DNA of 64,000 nucleotides from Eggerthella lenta DSM 2243 (lineage in GTDB: Bacteria; Actinomycetota; Coriobacteriia; Coriobacteriales; Eggerthellaceae). The first letter of the stretch is position 1. Each line of letters begins with the position of its first letter. The position numbers and the translations under genes are program-made. The DNA lies in the NCBI RefSeq assembly GCF_000024265.1, contig NC_013204.1:496001-560000 (forward strand), given 5' to 3'. Under the pieces are notes generated by a model. It searched no databases, had not been told where the DNA came from, and saw only the letters and a list, made by a program, of their open reading frames with translations. This document shows, one piece after another, positions 44,866 through 57,756 of the stretch.

Positions 44866-45106
44866 TACGATCCTCCCCTGGATGATAGCCTTCGACGGGT
44901 AGAATATCCCCTGCATCAGTATAGCGGGGGCGCTGGCGCGAATGCGGGGGAATCCGATAGCGGTTTCGCACATCGTGAGCTTCTGAACAGGCTAAACGTA
45001 AAATGTACATATTTCATGTAACACGCGATTGCGCCGATCGGCCTACAATGCGCGGTGTTTCGTCCCGACGGAACGCATGAGCAGACGAGGGAATCAAGGA
45101 GGGATC

Positions 45107-47527
45107 ATGACGAAAACGAAAGAGCATGCCGTTTCTCGCCGCACGTTCGTGAAAGGCTCGGCCCTGGCCGGCCTGGGCGCCGCCGCACTGGGCACCGGCA
45201 CGCTGTTCGCGTGCTCGCCGCAAGGAACCGATGAAGTTTCTGGCGGGGCATCGGAGACGGTCGACGAGAAGGTGGTTTGGGGCCATTGTTCCGTCAACTG
45301 CGAAGGTCGCTGCGCGCTGCGCCTGCATGTGACGAACGACGAAGTTGCGTGGGTGGAGAGCGACAACACGGGCGATGACGTGTACGGCGATCATCAGATT
45401 CGCGCATGTCTGCGCGGTCGTTCCATCCGGCGTTGGATTAATCATCCCGACCGCTTGTCTTACCCTATGAAGCGCGTCGGCAAACGCGGCGAAGGCAAGT
45501 TCGAGCAGATTTCCTGGGACGAGGCCTACGACCTCATTGCCGATAACTATCAGCGTATCCTCGACGAATACGGTCCTGAAGCCATCTGGAATCACTATGC
45601 TTCGGGCGTCAACGCCAGCAACATCGGGTCGTTCCTTTCTCGTTTCATCAACATGAACGGCGGATGCCTGGGGCGCTACGGCAGCTACAGCTCGGCTCAG
45701 ATATCCGCCGCCCTTCCGTATCTGTACGGCAAGCGTGCCGCCAACTCGAACTCCGACATCGTGAACGCGAAGCTCGTCGTGATGTTCGGCGAGAACTCCG
45801 TCGAAACGAAGGCTGGCGGTGCCGGGCCTACGTACCACTTGGAACAGGCGCTCGAGCAGGGCGGTGCAAAGGTCATCGTCATCGATCCGCGCTACAGCGA
45901 CACGGTGGCGACGCGGGCCGACCAGTGGATCCCCATTCGTCCCGGCACTGATGCGGCGCTCGTCGATGCCGTAGCCCATACCCTCATCGAGGAAGATCTA
46001 GTGGATCACGACTTTCTGGCCACCTACTGCATCGGTTACGACGAGGATACCATGCCGGAATCGGCGCAGGGGCAGAACAAGTCGTACAAAGCCTACATCA
46101 TGGGTCAAGGCGTAGACGGCGTCGAGAAAACGCCCGCATGGGCCGAAGGTATTACGGGGATTCCCGCCGATACCATTGTCGAGCTGGCACGCGAGATCGG
46201 CACTGCGAAACCCTGCGCCATCTACCAAGGCAAGGGTCCGCAGCGCCAATCGAATGGCGAGCAGACGGCACGCGCCATCTGCATGCTGCCGGTTCTCACG
46301 GGCAACGTAGGCATCAACGGCGGCAACACGGGTTCCGACCTTGACGGATTCTATTTCTCGTCGTTCTCGGTGCCGTCGGACAAAAACCCGGTGCAAACGT
46401 CGATCGCTACCTTCACCTGGACTGATGCCATCGATCACGGCACCGAGATGACGAAACTCGCCCATGGCGTGCGCGGCAAGGACAAGCTCGATGTGCCCAT
46501 CAAGATGATCTTCAACTACGCGGGCAACACGATCACGAACCAGCACAGCGACATCAATCGCACGCACGAGATCCTGCAAGACGAAAGCAAGTGCGAGTTC
46601 ATCGTGGTGTGGGAAACGTTCATGACCGATTCCGCCAAGTACGCCGACGTGCTGCTGCCCGATCTTATGCCGGTCGAGCAGCCGAACTTCGTCTCGAACG
46701 ACTATGCCGGCAACATGGGCTTTATCATCATGGGCGAGCCGGTCACCTCGCCGAAGTTCGAACGGCGCACGCTGTACGCCGATCTGCGTGAAATCGCCAA
46801 GCGCATGGGCAAGGAGGAAGCGTTCACCGAGGGCCGCGATGAGGAGGCTTGGCTTCAGTTCTGCTACGAGGAAGCTCGCAAGGAGGACGCAGATCTTCCA
46901 ACGTACGACGAGATGAAGGAAATGGGCGTTTATCGTCGTAAGGATCCGGACGGTCATCAGGTTGCGCTCAAGGATTTCCGCGATGATCCGGTAGCGAACC
47001 CGCTCAAAACCCCATCGGGCAAGATCGAGATATACTCCGAGCAGTTGGCGGAGATCGCCGAAACATGGGAGCTGGCCAAAGGCGACATCATCGACCCGTT
47101 GCCCGTATACGCGCCGGGCGTAGAGGGTTGGGACGATCCGCTTCGCGAAACGTATCCTCTCCAGATGCCAGGCTATCACTATAAGGCGCGTGCTCATTCG
47201 TCTTACGGCTGCATCGACGTGCTCAAGCAGGCGAACCCGCAAGAGCTGTGGATGAACCCGCTGGACGCCAGCGAGCGCAGCATTAAAGATGGCGACAAGG
47301 TTCAAGTGTTCAATGATCGCGGTACCGTCGAGATCGTGGCGAAGGTCACGCCGCGCATCATGCCCGGCGTGGTGTCGATGGGCCAGGGAGCTTGGCACGA
47401 CGCCGACATGTCCGGAAACAAGGTGGACAAGGGCGGCTGCATCAACACGCTGACCTCTCCTCGCCCGACGCCTTTGGCGAAGGCTAACCCGCAACACACG
47501 AACCTCGTCGAAGTCAAGAAGGCCTAG
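45107..47527 (+). CDS. DMSO-reductase-family molybdopterin oxidoreductase, catalytic subunit
   Basis: 806 residues from MTKTKEHAVSRRTFVKGS (AAGGAGGG upstream). Tat signal at 10-17. The Molybdop_Fe4S4 motif CSVNCEGRC and a later Cys before LRGRSIRRW bind the [4Fe-4S] cluster. The Moco body includes GCLGRYGSYSSAQI, where a Ser probably ligates Mo as in DmsA, and MFGENSVETKAGGAG. The C-terminal molydopterin dinucleotide-binding domain begins near PLQMPGYHYKARAHSSYG. Acts outside the membrane as a terminal reductase; the substrate (S-/N-oxide or other) is unknown. First gene of a five-gene operon. Confidence 0.92.
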   Translation: MTKTKEHAVSRRTFVKGSALAGLGAAALGTGTLFACSPQGTDEVSGGASETVDEKVVWGHCSVNCEGRCALRLHVTNDEVAWVESDNTGDDVYGDHQIRACLRGRSIRRWINHPDRLSYPMKRVGKRGEGKFEQISWDEAYDLIADNYQRILDEYGPEAIWNHYASGVNASNIGSFLSRFINMNGGCLGRYGSYSSAQISAALPYLYGKRAANSNSDIVNAKLVVMFGENSVETKAGGAGPTYHLEQALEQGGAKVIVIDPRYSDTVATRADQWIPIRPGTDAALVDAVAHTLIEEDLVDHDFLATYCIGYDEDTMPESAQGQNKSYKAYIMGQGVDGVEKTPAWAEGITGIPADTIVELAREIGTAKPCAIYQGKGPQRQSNGEQTARAICMLPVLTGNVGINGGNTGSDLDGFYFSSFSVPSDKNPVQTSIATFTWTDAIDHGTEMTKLAHGVRGKDKLDVPIKMIFNYAGNTITNQHSDINRTHEILQDESKCEFIVVWETFMTDSAKYADVLLPDLMPVEQPNFVSNDYAGNMGFIIMGEPVTSPKFERRTLYADLREIAKRMGKEEAFTEGRDEEAWLQFCYEEARKEDADLPTYDEMKEMGVYRRKDPDGHQVALKDFRDDPVANPLKTPSGKIEIYSEQLAEIAETWELAKGDIIDPLPVYAPGVEGWDDPLRETYPLQMPGYHYKARAHSSYGCIDVLKQANPQELWMNPLDASERSIKDGDKVQVFNDRGTVEIVAKVTPRIMPGVVSMGQGAWHDADMSGNKVDKGGCINTLTSPRPTPLAKANPQHTNLVEVKKA

Positions 47528-47537
47528 GGGGTAGACC

Positions 47538-48158
47538 ATGACTCAGTATGGATTTCATTTCGATGGCAAGCGCTGCACGGGATGTAAGACCTGCGTGCTG
47601 GCCTGCAAGGACAACAAAGACCTGTCGGCCGAGATCTCGTTCCGGAAGGTGTATGAATACGGCGGCGGCACGTGGAGCCAGAGCGATGGATTGTGGTCCA
47701 ACGACGCGTTCGGCTATTACGTCTCCGTCGCGTGCAACCATTGCGATAGCCCGGCTTGTATGGCGAAGTGCCCGCAGGGGGCCATCTCGAAGGACCCCGA
47801 CACGGGCATCGTGAACAACGATCCCGAGAAGTGCATCGGGTGCGGTACGTGCGCCATCGCGTGCCCGTACAGCGCGCCGAAGGTGGACGAGGAGATAAAG
47901 AAGGCGGTACGGTGCGACATGTGCGCCGATCGCGTGGCCGAGGGCAAGCAGCCCATCTGCGTGGAGGCGTGCCCGCTGCGCGCGCTCGACTTCGGCGAGA
48001 TCTCCGAGCTGCGCCAGAAGTACGGCGAGATGGCCGACATCGCCCCGCTGCCCAGCGCCGACGAGACGAAGCCGAACATCGTGATCACCGAGCCGGTGAA
48101 CGCGAAGCCGGCTGGAGATGCGACGGGGTCGGTGCTCAACGAGCGCGAGATCGCGTAG
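47538..48158 (+). CDS. DmsB-type ferredoxin electron-transfer subunit 1
   Basis: 206 residues. Four [4Fe-4S] motifs: CTGCKTCVLAC, CNHCDSPACMAKCP, CIGCGTCAIACP and CDMC...ICVEACP. Starts MTQYGFHFDGKRCTGCKTC, the usual DmsB opening. Carries electrons between the membrane anchor and the molybdenum subunit. Located 10 nt after the catalytic gene. Confidence 0.93.
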   Translation: MTQYGFHFDGKRCTGCKTCVLACKDNKDLSAEISFRKVYEYGGGTWSQSDGLWSNDAFGYYVSVACNHCDSPACMAKCPQGAISKDPDTGIVNNDPEKCIGCGTCAIACPYSAPKVDEEIKKAVRCDMCADRVAEGKQPICVEACPLRALDFGEISELRQKYGEMADIAPLPSADETKPNIVITEPVNAKPAGDATGSVLNEREIA

Positions 48159-48270
48159 AATCTTCTGAGCAGTATCAAGCGGGTGCCGCGCGGTCTGACG
48201 GCGCGGCACCCGGTGCGCTGCAGGGGGACGCGCGGCGCGTCGGCATGGCCGACGATCGGGGGAGGACACG

Positions 48271-48900
48271 GTGGAGCAATTCGGTTTCTACTTCAACGCG
48301 AAACGATGCACGGGCTGCAAAACGTGCATGCTCGCGTGCAAAGACTACCGCAATCTGGACGCCTCCGTGTCGTTTCGCCAGGTGTATGAGTTTGTCGGCG
48401 GCAGCTGGTCGAAGGACGAGCGCGGGTGCTGGGCGCAGGATTGCTTCGCGTTCTACGTGTCTTCGGCGTGCAATCATTGCGCGAGCCCCGCCTGTATGGA
48501 AGTATGCCCCACGGGTGCCATGGGCAAGAACGAGCTGGGACTCGTGAGCGTGGACGAGCATCGGTGCATCGGCTGCGGCTACTGTGCGCTGTCGTGTCCG
48601 TACCATGCGCCCAAGGTCGATCGGACCGTGGGGCACAGCGTGAAATGCGACGGATGCTCTCAACGTGCGCGAGAAGGGAGCGCTCCCGTCTGCGTGGAAG
48701 CTTGTCCGCTGCGGGCGCTTGAGTTCGGGCCTATCTCCGATTTGCGGGCGCGTCACGGTCGTGTCGCCGACATGCCCCCGCTTCCCGATTCATCGAAAAC
48801 CGCACCTAATTTGGTGTTGAGCCTTCCTGTGCGCTTGGAAGAGGACGAGAGCCGCGTGCTTGCGGAAGGCGCGGTTTGCAATATTCGCGAACTAGTGTGA
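48271..48900 (+). CDS. DmsB-type ferredoxin electron-transfer subunit 2
   Basis: 209 residues from the GTG at 48271 with GGGGGAGG upstream. The same four-cluster pattern as the preceding gene (CTGCKTCMLAC, CNHCASPACMEVCP, CIGCGYCALSCP, CDGC...VCVEACP), with clear but moderate similarity. A second such subunit in one operon is unusual. It may be an alternative electron donor or serve another catalytic subunit. Stops 12 nt before the chaperone gene. Confidence 0.9.
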   Translation: MEQFGFYFNAKRCTGCKTCMLACKDYRNLDASVSFRQVYEFVGGSWSKDERGCWAQDCFAFYVSSACNHCASPACMEVCPTGAMGKNELGLVSVDEHRCIGCGYCALSCPYHAPKVDRTVGHSVKCDGCSQRAREGSAPVCVEACPLRALEFGPISDLRARHGRVADMPPLPDSSKTAPNLVLSLPVRLEEDESRVLAEGAVCNIRELV

Positions 48901-48911
48901 GGGGAGCACCT

Positions 48912-49565
48912 ATGGACGATCGCATGGATGCCGTCAAGGCGGAACTCGAGGCCGTGTCTTTCGTGGGCGAGACGCTCGCCCCGTTTTTCTTGCAAGATCC
49001 CCGCACCGGCACGGCGGGCGCTGCGTTTCAGGCGGTGGCGCAGCTCCGTGCACAGGAAGCGGCTGATGCGTGGCCTTTCGCCGACGGGGCTGAAGCGCGT
49101 CACGCTTTGAGCTTGATGGTGAACGGTTTGGCCGACGGCATCGACGCCGACGACCTCGTGTGGGAGTACCGCCGTCTGTTCGTCGGTCCCGCTCCGAAGC
49201 CGGCCCCGCCCTGGGGCTCGGTGTACACCGACCGCGAATGCGTGGTGTTCGGCGAGGGCACGTTGGAGCTGCGCGCGTGGATGCGCGCGCACGGCGTGAG
49301 GCGCACGACCGATGAGCGAACCCCCGAGGATCACATCGGCCTCATGCTGGCGCTCATGTCCTACCTTGCGCGCAACCAGCCCGACGACCTGGACGAATTC
49401 TTGCAAATCCATCTGCTTACCTGGTCGTCGCACTTCCTCGACCAGCTGGTCGAGGCGGCGGATCACCCGTTCTATGAAGGGCTCGCCCGGCTTGCGAAGG
49501 CCTCGCTCGAAGGCATTCAGCAAGCACGCGACATCGACGTGACGTATCCGCGCTTCTATCGGTAG
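48912..49565 (+). CDS. TorD/DmsD-family molybdoenzyme chaperone
   Basis: 217 residues from MDDRMDAVKAELEAVSF with GAGGGGAG upstream. An all-helical TorD fold; the signature region is EYRRLFVGPAPKPAPPWGSV, and TPEDHIGLMLALMSYLA matches the E-P-D-H-I segment of the family. Binds the Tat signal peptide and apo-enzyme of the molybdoenzyme until cofactor is loaded. Confidence 0.88.
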   Translation: MDDRMDAVKAELEAVSFVGETLAPFFLQDPRTGTAGAAFQAVAQLRAQEAADAWPFADGAEARHALSLMVNGLADGIDADDLVWEYRRLFVGPAPKPAPPWGSVYTDRECVVFGEGTLELRAWMRAHGVRRTTDERTPEDHIGLMLALMSYLARNQPDDLDEFLQIHLLTWSSHFLDQLVEAADHPFYEGLARLAKASLEGIQQARDIDVTYPRFYR

Positions 49566-49574
49566 GCTTTGGCG

Positions 49575-50441
49575 ATGACCGGCTTTGCCACCGCGCTCAA
49601 CGAGATCACGCTCGTGTTGTTCACCACGCTGGCCCCGTCGGGCGCGGTGGCGTACGTCATCATGGGCATGGCGGCGCTGCGCGCGCAGGGCGACGAGCGC
49701 AAGCGGCTGAGCGGTGCGCTTCTCATCCCGTTTCTCGTGACGCTGGTGGGGCTCGTCGCCTCGGCTACGCATTTGGGCAATCCCGATAACGCGCTGTACG
49801 TGTTCTCGCGTGTAGGTGCGAGCCCGCTATCGAACGAAGTGTGCGCGGCCGTGTTGTTCCTGGGCATATCGGGTCTTCATTGGCTCTACCAGTTCGCCGA
49901 GCATGCGCGCCAGCGGGTGCTGAACGTGCTGCTGGGAGCGGCCATGGTCGCATCGCTCGCGTTCCTGATCTCGGTGGCGTTCGCCTACGCCAGCAGGACG
50001 GTGGTCACCTGGGACACGCCCTTCGTTCCCGTCGCGTTGTGCTTGAACGCGCTGGTGGGCGGCCCGGTTCTGACTCTTTTCTGCTTGCGGTTCTCGCGGT
50101 GGTCGCCGTTAGAAAGCCGGGTGGGCGGGATGCTGCTCGCCCTCTCGTCCGCAGCTCTCCTAGCGAATGCGGGCGTGTACGTCGCCCAAGGCATGAGCGT
50201 ACTTACGATGAGAAACTACCTTGTGTCCGCAGAACAGCTTGTACCGACGTATGGCGCGATGGCGACGGTTTTCTTCCTGCTTGCGGTAGCCGGGGTTGCA
50301 GTGGACGCTCTTCCGCTCATGCGCGGGCGCGGCATCTCGGTTGCATCGGCCGCCATCGCGTCTGCGCTGGTGTTCGCCGGCATCTTCGTGATGCGTTTCG
50401 CGTTCTACATGATGCATATGACCTACGGCATCAGTTTATAG
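49575..50441 (+). CDS. DmsC-type membrane anchor subunit
   Basis: 288 residues from the ATG at 49575 (a TTG at 49569 is in frame). Eight hydrophobic helices, starting FATALNEITLVLFTTLAPSG, as in DmsC. SATHLGNPDNALYVFSRVGA is a conserved DmsC loop, and SNEVCAAVLFLG follows. Oxidises menaquinol and anchors the complex. Last gene of the Dms operon; 51 nt later the next small gene starts. Confidence 0.88.
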   Translation: MTGFATALNEITLVLFTTLAPSGAVAYVIMGMAALRAQGDERKRLSGALLIPFLVTLVGLVASATHLGNPDNALYVFSRVGASPLSNEVCAAVLFLGISGLHWLYQFAEHARQRVLNVLLGAAMVASLAFLISVAFAYASRTVVTWDTPFVPVALCLNALVGGPVLTLFCLRFSRWSPLESRVGGMLLALSSAALLANAGVYVAQGMSVLTMRNYLVSAEQLVPTYGAMATVFFLLAVAGVAVDALPLMRGRGISVASAAIASALVFAGIFVMRFAFYMMHMTYGISL

Positions 50442-50492: not shown

Positions 50493-50582
50493 ATGATCGC
50501 GGATGCATCCGCCAAAGCCGCCCACCTGCGAACAATGAGCACCCTCGTCGTGCCTTGTGTTGTCGCCTCTCTGGAGGCTTAG
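50493..50582 (+). CDS. Candidate signal peptide precursor, 29 residues
   Basis: ATG with a strong GAAGGAG six bases upstream. The reading frame of 29 codons ends in TAG only 5 nt before the next start. The N-terminal half is amphipathic (IADASAKAAHLRTM); the C-terminal half is STLVVPCVVASLEA, with one Cys seven residues from the end and an acidic tail. AgrD-type thiolactone precursors have this general plan, and agrD also precedes the agrC sensor. No AgrB protease gene is in view. Not supported by homology; a coupling (leader) peptide is the alternative. Confidence 0.45.
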   Translation: MIADASAKAAHLRTMSTLVVPCVVASLEA

Positions 50583-50587
50583 AGGGT

Positions 50588-51453
50588 ATGCATCTGTCGA
50601 ACACGATGCTCGACGTACTGGGCACTGCTCCGGTGGAAGCGGTCATCATCTACACCTGGAGCCGCGTGCTGCATATGCGCAACAGGGCCGCATTCTACCT
50701 TCTTATGTCAAGCTGCATGCTCGTGGTAGTGTTGACGCGCGGCGATGCGGGAACAGGGATGCGCTTCGCCTACCTCGTGTTCACGGGAGGCGTGCTGCCC
50801 TTCCTCATGGCAGACGAGCGTCCTGCGCGAAAAGTGTTCGTCATTGCGCTCATGAACGTGGCAATCATGATCGCCGAAGTGCTGGGGACGGCGTTGTGGT
50901 ACGGCATGACGGGAATCGACATCATCGATTACGACAATACGCGGGCGCATCTCGGAGAGTTCGCGATTATGCACGCGGCCCATCTCGTCTTGATGATAGC
51001 GCTGTTCGCCGCGCTGCGCCTCGCTCTACAACGCGGCGAGTCTGCGGGATCGATGAATTTGCGGCTGTTCCTCTGGTTTCCGGTCGTGCAGGCTCTTCTG
51101 CTGACGGTTCCCCTGATTGCAGGGTGTATGCCCGCCTGGGTTCCAGCATGCTCTTCTACGGCATGTCGGTGCTTGCGATCGGGTGCTTCGTCGTGGATGC
51201 GATGCTGTTCGCTTCGATGGACCGCTACGCTCGCAAGCGGCATGAGGATCAGCGAGCCGCGCTGTTGCAGGGTCAGCTGGATGCGTGTCTTGCGCAGTGC
51301 AATGCGTTCGTCTTGGAGGTCGAGCAGACGGCGAGGATGCGCCACGACGTGCGAAACCAGGCTCATGCGGCTATGGTGCTTGCCGAGAGAGGCGACTATG
51401 CGCGCGCCCGTGATCATATATCATCGTTTCGGTCATTATATTTGCCGAAGTGA
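50588..51453 (+). pseudogene. AgrC-like membrane sensor, frameshifted, H-box half only
   Basis: Starts MHLSNTMLDVLGTAPVEAVI; about six TM helices in one frame up to TVPLIAG (about 51120), then the homologous sequence continues in the -1 frame: RLGSSMLFYGMSVLAIGCFV to RMRHDVRNQAHAAMVLAERG, stop at 51453. The paralogue at 52285 reads through the same region, so a base was lost, or the sequence has an error. Even repaired, it ends after the phospho-acceptor RHDVRN box and has no ATPase domain. Confidence 0.7.
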
Positions 51454-51553
51454 CCGAAAAACCCGGAAGGGGCAAAAGGCTTCATCGTATATAATCTCGT
51501 GGAGCGCAGCACGCTTATCCCCTCCATGCAAACCAGAGACGTTAGCCGATGCC

Positions 51554-52267
51554 ATGTACCAGGTCGTAATAGTAGAAGACGATGCCGCCCAAGCCGAGAT
51601 CATCCGGAGCATGATCGAATGCTCCCCGCGTGGCGGCGAGCTCGCCATCGAGCATGTTGTCGACGCCGAATCTTTGACGGCGCGTCTTGCGGAGGAACCG
51701 GCCATTGACGTTCTCGTGATGGATATCGAGCTGGGCTCGGAAGACGCGAACGGCATCGACCTCGTGAAGCGGTATTTCCCCGCAGGGTGCGGCACGCAGG
51801 TGATCTACGTCACCGGCTTCGTCGAATACTGCACGAGCGTGTACCGCACAGAGCATCTGTATTTTCTGGTAAAGCCGTTCGCGCAGGACGACTTGGACGA
51901 CGCGCTGAGCCGCGCGCTCGAGCGGCTCGAGGCCGACTCGAGCAAGCCCCTGAGCGTTCGGCTTGGAAGCAGGGTAGTGCTTGTCGAGCCGAGCAGGATC
52001 AGCTATATCGAAAGCGATCGGCGCAAAGTACGCATCCATGCGGGAGCCGAGGAGATCGAAGCGTACGCGTCGTTGTCCGACCTCGCTGCCGAGCTGCCCG
52101 CTTCGTTCATCCAATGCCATAAGAGCTTCCTGGTAAACATGGATCACGTCAAGGAGCTCAAAGCGGACAGCGTGGTGCTCTCGTCGAACCAGGTTGTGCC
52201 TGTGAGCCAGAAGCGCCGCAAATTCGTGCGCGAAGCTGTCTTCTCGCGCGTGCAATCCAAGCTGTAG
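51554..52267 (+). CDS. LytTR-family response regulator (AgrA-like)
   Basis: 237 residues. Receiver domain: QVVIVEDDAAQAEIIRSM, the phosphorylated Asp in VLVMDIELGSEDANG, YVTGFVEYC and FLVKPFAQDD. The LytTR DNA-binding domain follows from about 140: EPSRISYIESDRRKVRIHAG, FIQCHKSFLVNMDHVKEL, VVPVSQKRRKFVRE. A TATAAT at 51490-51495 may be an internal promoter. The ribosome site is weak. Controls target promoters after phosphorylation by the split kinase encoded around it. Confidence 0.9.
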   Translation: MYQVVIVEDDAAQAEIIRSMIECSPRGGELAIEHVVDAESLTARLAEEPAIDVLVMDIELGSEDANGIDLVKRYFPAGCGTQVIYVTGFVEYCTSVYRTEHLYFLVKPFAQDDLDDALSRALERLEADSSKPLSVRLGSRVVLVEPSRISYIESDRRKVRIHAGAEEIEAYASLSDLAAELPASFIQCHKSFLVNMDHVKELKADSVVLSSNQVVPVSQKRRKFVREAVFSRVQSKL

Positions 52268-52284
52268 GACGGCGAGGCTCTCGT

Positions 52285-53172
52285 ATGCCCGATGCTCTCC
52301 TCGACATCATCGGGGTCGTTCCCGTGCAATTGGTGTTCGCCTATGCGCTCACCAAGATGCTCAATATTCGCAGGCTCTACCTGTTCTGGGTGCTGGAACT
52401 TGTTTTCGTGCTGCTTATCTCCTCGTTTCGTTCAAGCATGAGCGTCGAGTTCAGATTGGCGGCCTCCGTGCCGCTCGCCCTCATTCCCATATTCCTATCG
52501 CAGGGAAGCCTCGCGCGCAGGATTCTCGTCGTGACGCTGGCGCATCTGGTGCTTTTCTTTGCGGAGCTGCCCGGCGGCGCCCTGTGGATGTCGATGACCG
52601 GCACGCCGGTCGCCGATTACGAGGCCGTTCGAACGCATCTTGGCGCTTTTTTCCTGACTCATGCGGCTCATATGGCTCTGCTCGTTCCGCTTCTCGCGAT
52701 GCTCTGCATGCTGCTGAACCGTTTCGGCAGCGCTCAGGAACGGGGAATGGGCGAATGGCTGCCCGTGCTTTTTTCCTTGGTACAGCTTGTTCTGGTGAAC
52801 GTGATGATCCTTTTACCGCTCGGCTACATCCAGGAATCGATGACGTATTACGGCGCAAGCGTGGTGCTGGCGCTTGTCGGTTTCGCGGTCGATCTGCTGC
52901 TGTTTGAGGCTATGGGTCGCTTCGCCCAAAAGCGGCGCGACGATGTCCGTGCGACGATGCTCGAAGAGCAGCTGGATCGGTATCTCGCGCGTTGCGGGGA
53001 GTTCGTTTCGGACATTGAGCATACCTTGAAGGTGCGGCACGATATGGGCAACCACGTACAGGTGGTGCTTGCCCTGTCGGAACGCGGCAACTTTCAAGAG
53101 GCCCACGAACATCTTGCCTGCATGGCCGAGGTGCTTAACGATACCCGCCGAAGCGAGGAGGCAGTCTTATGA
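52285..53172 (+). CDS. AgrC-like membrane sensor with phospho-acceptor box but no ATPase domain
   Basis: 295 residues. About six or seven TM helices (residues 1-205), then a helical region ELLE-type (EEQLDRYLARCGEFVSDIEH) and the H-box KVRHDMGNHVQVVL near 250, as in AgrC-type kinases. The protein ends 40 residues later, where a GHKL ATPase should start. The stop overlaps the next gene by ATGA, and that gene supplies an ATPase without the His. Together they look like a kinase split in two. Confidence 0.85.
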   Translation: MPDALLDIIGVVPVQLVFAYALTKMLNIRRLYLFWVLELVFVLLISSFRSSMSVEFRLAASVPLALIPIFLSQGSLARRILVVTLAHLVLFFAELPGGALWMSMTGTPVADYEAVRTHLGAFFLTHAAHMALLVPLLAMLCMLLNRFGSAQERGMGEWLPVLFSLVQLVLVNVMILLPLGYIQESMTYYGASVVLALVGFAVDLLLFEAMGRFAQKRRDDVRATMLEEQLDRYLARCGEFVSDIEHTLKVRHDMGNHVQVVLALSERGNFQEAHEHLACMAEVLNDTRRSEEAVL

Positions 53173-54110
53173 TCGTGCGGATGATCATCGCGGTAGGCGT
53201 GCTGCTGCTGATGTGCGCGATTATGGCGGTGCTGGCGCGCCGGCTGCGCGGCGTGCCCCCGACGCGTCTTTTGATTAACCTTTTGTTCCCGTTCAGCCAG
53301 CTGTGCATCGTTGCGTTCCTCTTTTATTATGCGATTGCCTACGAGCTGCCTTTTTGGATGTTCGCGCTGGTCGCGGTCGTGGGCGCCCTGTGCGGACCGG
53401 TCGATCTCGTGCTGTTCAAAGCGTTGGAGGAGTCCGAGAAGCGCGAGCTGTCCCGCGAGCGTGTGCGTCTGCTGGAAGAGCAGTTGCAAGCGCAGGAACA
53501 GTATTTGCGGCGTTTATCGGCGGACATCGATGAAGCGCGCCGCGTTCGCGAAGACGTCGCACGCGAGCTAGCGGCGGTGGACGATCTGCTGCAACGGCAA
53601 GAGGCCGAACAGGCATCGCGGGGGCTGATGAAGGCGGTCGGCATCATGGATTCGTCCTGCAAGCGCTCGTGCGAGCACCAGGTGGTCGATGCCCTCGTCT
53701 CGATGAAGGCTGCCGTATGTGCGGAGCGAGGCATTCGACTCGAGCTCGATCTGGCGCTGGCCGACGATGTCTCTCTGCCGAGCGTGGAGCTGTGCGCGGT
53801 GTTCTCGAACCTGCTGGACAACGCTGTCAGCGCATGCGGCAAGGTGCCGGAGGGCGCGCGGTTCATCAAGCTGAAAGCACGTGTGGATGCCGGCTATCTG
53901 GCAGTGCGGATGGAGAACAGTTGCGCGCCGGCTGAACCTGGCGAGGCCCGTCGCGCTCCGCGCCGTTCGCGCGGCGACCGCCTTCCCGAGCACGGCTGGG
54001 GCCTGAACATCCTCAAAACCCTCGCCGACCGTCACGACGGCACGTTGGAAACCGTGCAGGAAGATGGCGTGTACCGCACAACGGTGTTGCTGAAACTGGA
54101 TGCAAGGTGA
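53169..54110 (+). CDS. Membrane GHKL ATPase half-kinase lacking the phospho-acceptor His
   Basis: 313 residues. Three or four TM helices (1-80), a coiled coil (ESEKRELSRERVRLLEEQLQ), then a GHKL ATPase: N-box FSNLLDNAVSACGKVPEGA, and HGWGLNILKTLADRH as the G box. At the position of the H-box the coiled region reads RRVREDVARELAAVDDL with no His. It therefore probably phosphorylates the RHDMGN box of the coupled partner gene in trans (inference). Confidence 0.85.
   Translation: MIVRMIIAVGVLLLMCAIMAVLARRLRGVPPTRLLINLLFPFSQLCIVAFLFYYAIAYELPFWMFALVAVVGALCGPVDLVLFKALEESEKRELSRERVRLLEEQLQAQEQYLRRLSADIDEARRVREDVARELAAVDDLLQRQEAEQASRGLMKAVGIMDSSCKRSCEHQVVDALVSMKAAVCAERGIRLELDLALADDVSLPSVELCAVFSNLLDNAVSACGKVPEGARFIKLKARVDAGYLAVRMENSCAPAEPGEARRAPRRSRGDRLPEHGWGLNILKTLADRHDGTLETVQEDGVYRTTVLLKLDAR

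Positions 54111-55176: not shown

Positions 55177-57756
<2,580 letters not shown>

Follow-up and report, generated by a model that had tools for sequence, protein, structure and literature searches.

A candidate AgrC-type membrane histidine kinase of Eggerthella lenta with its phospho-acceptor and its ATPase on separate proteins

Introduction

In the textbook view, a histidine kinase is a homodimer whose two chains both carry the phospho-accepting histidine and the ATPase domain. AgrC of Staphylococcus aureus (HPK10) has one chain with one DHp region and one ATPase domain, and AgrA is its LytTR regulator. Here we analyze a locus of Eggerthella lenta DSM 2243, positions 50493-54110 of a 64,000-nucleotide window (496,001 to 560,000 of contig NC_013204.1, forward strand; coordinates below are those of the window unless a relative's locus is named), that resembles the AgrC system in its RHDxxN-type box, its GHKL_5 ATPase and its LytTR partner regulator. 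It differs from the single chain of AgrC in that the kinase parts are distributed over two genes, 52285 and 53169, each with a DHp-type region of its own. On the sequence comparisons described below, this pair probably constitutes an obligate two-subunit histidine kinase that acts in trans and whose sensor subunits are interchangeable.

Cisar and colleagues reportedly found in 2009 that mixed AgrC dimers, with one subunit lacking the histidine and the other the ATPase, work in trans. Those asymmetric dimers resemble the arrangement in the window, although they were laboratory mutants of one gene, whereas the window holds two evolved genes. DivL and RetS are kinase-like proteins that lack the catalytic histidine, and they share with the ATPase protein of the window an ATPase fold without that residue. 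DivL, however, acts on another kinase, CckA, according to PMC9491836, while the neighbor of the window's ATPase protein has no ATPase and is not a complete kinase.

Kinases split between two proteins have also been described. PMC3591291 reports CheA3/CheA4 of Rhodobacter sphaeroides as a split kinase in which neither protein autophosphorylates alone, and it puts the share of HisKA proteins that could be bifunctional kinases of the split kind at an estimated 1.7%. CheA3/CheA4 and the window pair both place the phospho-accepting and the ATP-using parts on different proteins, but CheA3/CheA4 is a chemotaxis CheA with a P1 domain, whereas the window pair consists of membrane proteins with an AgrC-type DHp region, homologous halves and, in some loci, several sensors per ATPase. 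Hik36/Hik43 of Synechocystis is likewise described as a split histidine kinase, with a two-hybrid interaction, in PMC7656254; unlike the window pair, it is a CheA homologue in two parts with an Hpt domain on one half and with its genes at distant positions. CheA-type domains (Hpt, CheW) were absent among the Pfam matches at E <= 1 of both window proteins, which therefore do not form a CheA-type kinase. Split kinases are thus already known, and what is new here is a membrane version made from two duplicated copies. The original prediction for this locus, made from the sequence alone, knew of no named system with its gene order; this agrees with a literature search by titles and abstract openings, covering few subscription journals, in which no description of an AgrC-type membrane pair was recognized and only the principle of the split kinase was found (PMC3591291 and PMC7656254).

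Results

Two overlapping genes carry complementary kinase parts

Sensor 2 (52285..53172, on the forward strand like every feature of the locus), the predicted phospho-acceptor subunit of 295 amino acids, has about seven hydrophobic segments, a coil and a DHp region with an RHDxxN box made up of R251, H252, D253 and N256; the codon of the predicted phospho-acceptor, His252, is read at 53038..53040. A Pfam search gave no ATPase match for this protein, and its sole match at E <= 1 was the SPOB_a helical domain, which at E 9.5e-4 fell below the cut-off. The stop of sensor 2 and the start of the following gene (53169..54110) share the letters ATGA. This second gene encodes a 313-amino-acid ATPase subunit with about three hydrophobic segments before its coil (hydropathy windows, merged by hand, for both proteins), a DHp-like region lacking the histidine and a GHKL ATPase domain at residues 206-308 (53784..54092). 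The domain bears an N-box (FSNLLDNA), a G1-type N (N250) and HGWGL, and it was recognized by Pfam as HATPase_c_5 at 6e-14, the remaining matches of the protein at E <= 1 being HATPase_c and low-scoring others. When the DHp regions are aligned, VREDVARE of the ATPase protein falls on VRHDMGNH of sensor 2, which puts Glu128 (codon 53550..53552) at the position of the catalytic histidine.

The pair therefore combines an HDxxN-type box in the sensor with HATPase_c_5 in the partner, as in AgrC and HPK10 kinases, and the ATPase protein taken alone has the features of a His-less pseudokinase, its catalytic histidine replaced and its ATPase fold kept. This anatomy bears out the original prediction, which had described sensors with AgrC-type RHDxxN boxes that end before any ATPase, and a gene overlapping the second of them by ATGA that has membrane helices, a coil and a GHKL ATPase but no histidine.

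The split pair recurs in relatives and does not look like a broken gene

Of the 138 genomes searched in the family, 54 matched the ATPase protein (E <= 1e-10), a count that takes in single-chain kinases, and 34 matched the sensor (E <= 1e-6). With a sensor profile, matches were obtained in 99 of the 395 genomes searched in the order at E <= 1e-8, including DHp parts of single-chain kinases, and in 57 of 396 taken from the class at E <= 1e-12, where all matches listed belong to the same order; the share of this draw that comes from other orders is not shown, and other phyla were reached with one narrow DNA pattern rather than with profiles. From the match lists, 96 stretches were picked by hand and fetched, of which 80 were candidates for the split or fused form and the other 16 were controls with single-chain kinases; weaker matches were left unread, several stretches came from one genome, and reading frames were classified with profiles grown from the window proteins. 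The 80 loci referred to below are the window and 79 of the 80 candidates, L112 (ATPase domain only) dropping out.

In 68 of these 80 loci, at least one full-length sensor and at least one ATPase protein are encoded in frames of their own. The congeners L073 and L075 share the gene order of the window. Another six loci carry fusions, and six are incomplete or partial (L079, L082, L096, L098, L099 and L105). Among the window and four close relatives, the pairwise ratio of nonsynonymous to synonymous substitution rates (dN/dS) of sensor 2 was 0.12-0.38 and that of the ATPase gene 0.12-0.25, with many dS values near or above 1. That the halves are remnants of a single-chain kinase broken by gene decay or a sequencing error, as the frameshift of sensor 1 in this genome could lead one to suppose, is barely credible in view of the 68 loci with separate full-length frames, the dN/dS values below 0.4 and the partner's own membrane helices and DHp-like copy, which would not be expected from a cut gene; for the 52285/53169 pair, the intact frames and dN/dS rule decay out. 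Judged from these comparisons, the split pair is real, occurs widely in its order and is under purifying selection.

The histidine is kept in sensors and the ATPase residues in partners

In the alignment of DHp regions, fusions included, the histidine was kept in 103/103 sensor copies (104 rows, from which the spurious frame L138|10324 was dropped before this count) and was absent from 78 of the 80 copies borne by ATPase proteins. Single-chain kinases of the same order kept it in 14/14 cases, the controls L160 and L163 (two of the 16) having no DHp match and so standing outside the 14. Phospho-acceptor histidine and ATPase hence lie on different proteins, as in a split histidine kinase, the sensors being without an ATPase and the partners without the histidine. 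R251, H252, D253 and N256 were invariant among 32 aligned sensors; in the wider set the motif Asp was found in 94 and the motif Asn in 97 of 104 rows. On the other side, N214, D217, N218, N250, G276, W277 and G278 were invariant among 31 aligned ATPase proteins. The 75 non-fused ATPase rows, which include L112 and from which the spurious L113_A_6915 is absent, preserved N214 in 70, D217 in 73, N218 in 69, N250 in 71, G276 in 69 and G278 in 72, and these six residues were present in 6/6 fusions. The repetition of the same complementary pattern in related loci argues that it is more than chance, and sensor and partner each seem to retain their own part of one active site.

A different role for the His-less protein was considered, namely that of a regulatory pseudokinase of the DivL or RetS kind: an ATP-binding modulator of the sensors, which would themselves serve mainly as phosphatases of the LytTR regulator, with phosphate supplied by small donors or by a different kinase. 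Kinases that lack the histidine yet have a folded ATPase domain do exist, DivL and RetS structures appeared among the structure matches described below, and seven of 78 loci have a damaged N-box. PMC9491836 also discusses DivL as a pseudokinase controlling CckA and reports that two paralogous kinases form heterodimers; its own pseudokinase lost the ATPase part and not the histidine. Conservation of the catalytic ATPase residues in most partners, however, would not be expected of a mere modulator, and the sensors, being without an ATPase, need a phosphorylator, with the partner adjoining them. As the fusions, too, retain one His-bearing region and one ATPase, we consider the pseudokinase role improbable.

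The fate of the two parts also appears to be linked. Over the 78 loci with both halves, all five loci in which sensors lost the Asp that follows the histidine (L138, L144, L146, L150 and L151) also have a damaged N-box, the N-box alone is changed in L141 and L148, and both parts are intact in 71 (Fisher p 1e-6, computed over all 78 loci, of which the affected ones are related). This coupled decay of sensor Asp and N-box is suggestive but falls short of proof, and the subgroup with damaged motifs perhaps signals without phosphorylation.

The two halves are homologous and occur as natural fusions

In a search of the genome against itself, residues 131-283 of sensor 2 matched the ATPase protein (tblastn E 3.0e-6, 25% identity), the common region comprising the last membrane helices, the coil and the DHp region. 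Because the halves are homologous to each other, they are not one gene cut in two, and because the partner has a membrane part and a His-less DHp-like region of its own, it does not represent a tail that the sensor has lost. Duplication followed by complementary loss would explain two homologous halves, as a cut single gene would not.

Six fusions were found (L084, L085, L090, L103, L106 and L147). Their chains run from a sensor domain through a His-bearing region and a His-less region to the ATPase, and the histidine is present only in the first DHp-type region. Named carriers of fusions are Adlercreutzia faecimuris (L169), Enterorhabdus sp. P55 (L170) and A. equolifaciens DFI.6.87 (L172); in L082, both DHp-type regions and the ATPase lie in one frame that holds no sensor domain. 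Relatives were checked for a complete kinase on a single chain in this position, which would mark both halves as broken genes, and the only single chains (6/80) proved to be these tandem fusions with two DHp-type regions; a chain with a sensor domain, a single DHp region and an ATPase was found in none of the 80 loci. Such tandem fusions are what the fusing of a split system would give. In a tree of ATPase domains, from which the row L113_A_6915 was set aside as a spurious long branch, the fusions fall inside the split clade (three changes), and split and fused forms separate from the 16 single-chain kinases with a Shimodaira-Hasegawa-like approximate likelihood ratio (SH-aLRT) support of 83.

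The fusions bear as well on how the subunits might associate. A sub-form of the two-subunit kinase, compatible with it, would be one like CheA3/CheA4, in which sensor homodimers and ATPase homodimers meet in a tetramer or a transient encounter instead of a 1:1 heterodimer. The known split kinase consists of separate proteins that act by complex formation (PMC3591291), and the present data would fit either stoichiometry. Homologous membrane helices, coil and DHp-like region in both halves nevertheless point to pairing through the common part, and the fusions hold one copy of each half per chain, so that this sub-form strikes us as somewhat unlikely.

Several sensors appear to share one ATPase gene

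Two or more full-length sensors were present in 18 of the 80 loci, in the orders regulator-sensor-sensor-ATPase and sensor-sensor-ATPase-regulator, among others; L107 (G012) has four sensors and two ATPase genes in one locus. For 27/27 sensor pairs within a locus, the last 65 residues (coil plus DHp region, hereafter the dock) were more alike than the sensing domain. Since this could reflect slower change of the dock, the pairs were compared with 4629 pairs taken between loci. At dock identities of 0.8-0.985, six within-locus pairs had sensing-domain identities of 0.28-0.60, whereas 20 between-locus pairs had sensing-domain medians of 0.74 and 0.93. Four between-locus pairs combined a dock identity of at least 0.7 with a sensing-domain identity below 0.45, indicating that exchange is not confined to one locus. 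A similar contrast was seen between the close Eggerthella species L073 and L075: their sensor 2 proteins agree at 277/301 positions and their ATPase proteins are 93% identical, yet sensor 1 is identical at only 120/294 positions overall and at 45/55 of the last 55 residues. From these identities, sensor heads appear to have been exchanged, or to have diverged fast, while the dock stayed the same.

Structure models support the domain types

The AlphaFold2 model of the window ATPase protein had a mean predicted local distance difference test (pLDDT) score of 82.5 and a predicted template modeling (pTM) score of 0.47. The AgrC kinase module was the top Protein Data Bank (PDB) match of both this model and that of the natural fusion L169, with 6e52 at Z 17.1 in each. 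For the window protein, 6e52 and 6e95 (both Z 17.1) superposed with root-mean-square deviations of 13.8 and 15.3, and 4bxi (Z 16.3) at 2.4 A over 128 residues; the fusion model matched 4bxi at 1.9 A over 126 residues. The large deviations from AgrC structures are taken to reflect domain hinges in the models. Many other kinase ATPase domains rank close behind AgrC, DivL and RetS structures are among the matches, and the membrane and coil parts were barely tested by the comparison; the two models back no more than the domain types. Profile searches of solved structures placed AgrC 6e52 third of seven matches (E 0.001) and gave nothing convincing for the sensors (best E 0.1).

The remainder of the locus and the question of an Agr peptide

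Read from the sequence, four genes run in the same direction from 50588 to 54110: sensor 1, the LytTR response regulator, sensor 2 and the ATPase protein. Sensor 1 (50588..51454), a membrane sensor with an RHDxxN box that stops before any ATPase, starts with ATG at 50588, changes frame near 51125-51150 and continues in a second part, bearing RMRHDVRNQ, to 51454; the genome self-search split it into two matches in two frames. It is intact at the same position in the two congeners (2827-3711 in L073 and 2902-3783 in L075), where it stops right after the DHp region, and in the window gene decay or a sequencing error is possible for sensor 1 alone. The regulator (51554..52267) has a receiver and a LytTR DNA-binding domain (Pfam Response_reg 5.6e-11, LytTR 4.6e-21), and a LytTR match was present in 71 of the 80 loci, in keeping with a regulator of the AgrA type. 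The frameshift and the LytTR regulator between the two sensors had both been pointed out from the sequence, correctly as it turns out.

An inverted repeat, TTTCGGTCA...TGACCGAAA, spans the end of sensor 1 at 51427-51459 and is not obviously conserved in the congeners. Between sensor 1 and the regulator, a TATAAT-like block, TCATCGTATATAATCTCGT, is conserved in L073, L075 and the window (counterpart gap 51455-51553). In the gaps of L073 (3712-3830) and L075 (3784-3900) a run of about 11-13 G lies just 5' of this block, and the window is without a long G run; a G run of variable length in the L073/L075 gap could act as an expression switch.

A small open reading frame (ORF) of 29 amino acids with one Cys was found by a small-ORF scan at 50493..50582, just 5' of sensor 1 and behind a strong ribosome-binding site (AAGGAG); its membership of the locus is uncertain. 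It raises the prospect that the locus is an Agr-type peptide quorum-sensing system with an unusual kinase, with this ORF as the precursor of the signal. AgrC-type kinase parts and a LytTR regulator are indeed present, the small ORF with its strong ribosome-binding site precedes sensor 1, and the sensing domain of sensor 1 changes fast, as sensor domains of peptide receptors do. However, the genome gave no match to AgrB (PF04647, E <= 0.001), although this search lacks a strong positive control, as only one of 14 control genomes matched and none over the cut-off, and no small ORF recurring beside sensors was noticed by eye in the scan of the loci. The 29-amino-acid ORF itself has no counterpart in L073, and in L075 the same scan gave only a 60-amino-acid out-of-frame ORF inside sensor 1. 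A peptide system therefore seems very improbable, and the Agr peptide cassette was set aside as a candidate. A near-identical 31-amino-acid ORF with four Cys follows the ATPase part in L096 and L103 (4904-4999) and does not lie beside a sensor start.

By our own reading, the window has a leucyl-tRNA synthetase gene at 55177-57756, and such a gene is also near the L075, L084, L085, L096, L103, L104 and L112 loci; its recurrence suggests an inherited chromosomal position, not function. Upstream, the genes at 45029-50441 resemble, on reading alone, those for a molybdopterin oxidoreductase, two iron-sulfur proteins, a membrane anchor and a TorD-like chaperone. Clustering of neighboring ORFs yielded no conserved target gene, its output being mostly reading-frame shadows in GC-rich DNA.

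Discussion

Comparing the loci shows that the two halves are conserved in complementary parts and are homologous to each other, that fusions occur naturally and that a locus can hold several sensors. What we infer is the formation of a complex, the direction of phosphotransfer and a phosphatase role; it is the fusions and the coupled decay that speak for a complex acting in trans. Both subunits would derive from one AgrC-type (HPK10-like) membrane kinase through duplication and complementary loss, the sensor having retained the sensing membrane domain and the phospho-accepting histidine and lost the ATPase, and the partner having retained the ATPase together with the last membrane helices, the coil and a DHp-like helical region that lacks the histidine. 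Membrane helices, coils and DHp regions would hold the subunits together; a signal at the sensor would lead the partner's ATPase to phosphorylate His252 in trans, and the phosphate would pass to an Asp of the LytTR regulator and change transcription. By analogy with CheA3, the free sensor may work as a phosphatase. Several sensors with differing membrane domains and a common docking region could use one ATPase subunit and be exchanged in evolution.

A number of observations weigh against this two-subunit kinase. The His column is occupied by a histidine in the ATPase-borne copies of L111 and L131, both of which lack the motif Asp and Asn, while the L131 sensors in turn lack the Asn. In the model of the window ATPase protein, the DHp-like part is one long helix with no hairpin turn and low local confidence, and the fusion model is of middling quality (pLDDT 69.5, pTM 0.40). 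On a tree, the coupled decay reduces to about two independent concordant events, for which an independent-pairs sign test is not significant, and the pattern was spotted before its test was framed. The contrast between sensing domain and dock weakens, with overlapping ranges, at dock identities of 0.6-0.8 and is absent below 0.6, and the between-locus pairs at the top dock identities are near-orthologues. Finally, a single origin of the split and fused group has moderate support.

The original prediction of a kinase split into phospho-acceptor and ATPase genes, with exchangeable sensor halves, is strongly supported by the comparison. The part that has fared less well is the term Agr-like if it is taken to mean a peptide system, given the failure to match AgrB; on the sequences, the term appears to fit the kinase type only.

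As a wider reading, which we offer tentatively though as a serious possibility, members of this bacterial order may use a modular receptor kit in which one membrane ATPase subunit serves several interchangeable sensors through a common docking and phospho-acceptor region. Evolution would swap the sensing domains and keep dock and ATPase matched to each other, and signals would be integrated by competition of the sensors for the catalytic subunit. As no kinase domain reaches the Pfam cut-off in sensor 2, such sensors may be overlooked in annotation. If the two-subunit kinase is real, a widespread natural pair of a His subunit and an ATPase subunit would make cis versus trans phosphorylation and asymmetric signaling in kinase dimers testable with no need to engineer mutants. 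Such a pair would further illustrate how sensors can be added cheaply by reuse of one catalytic subunit, and it would offer ready parts for signaling circuits.

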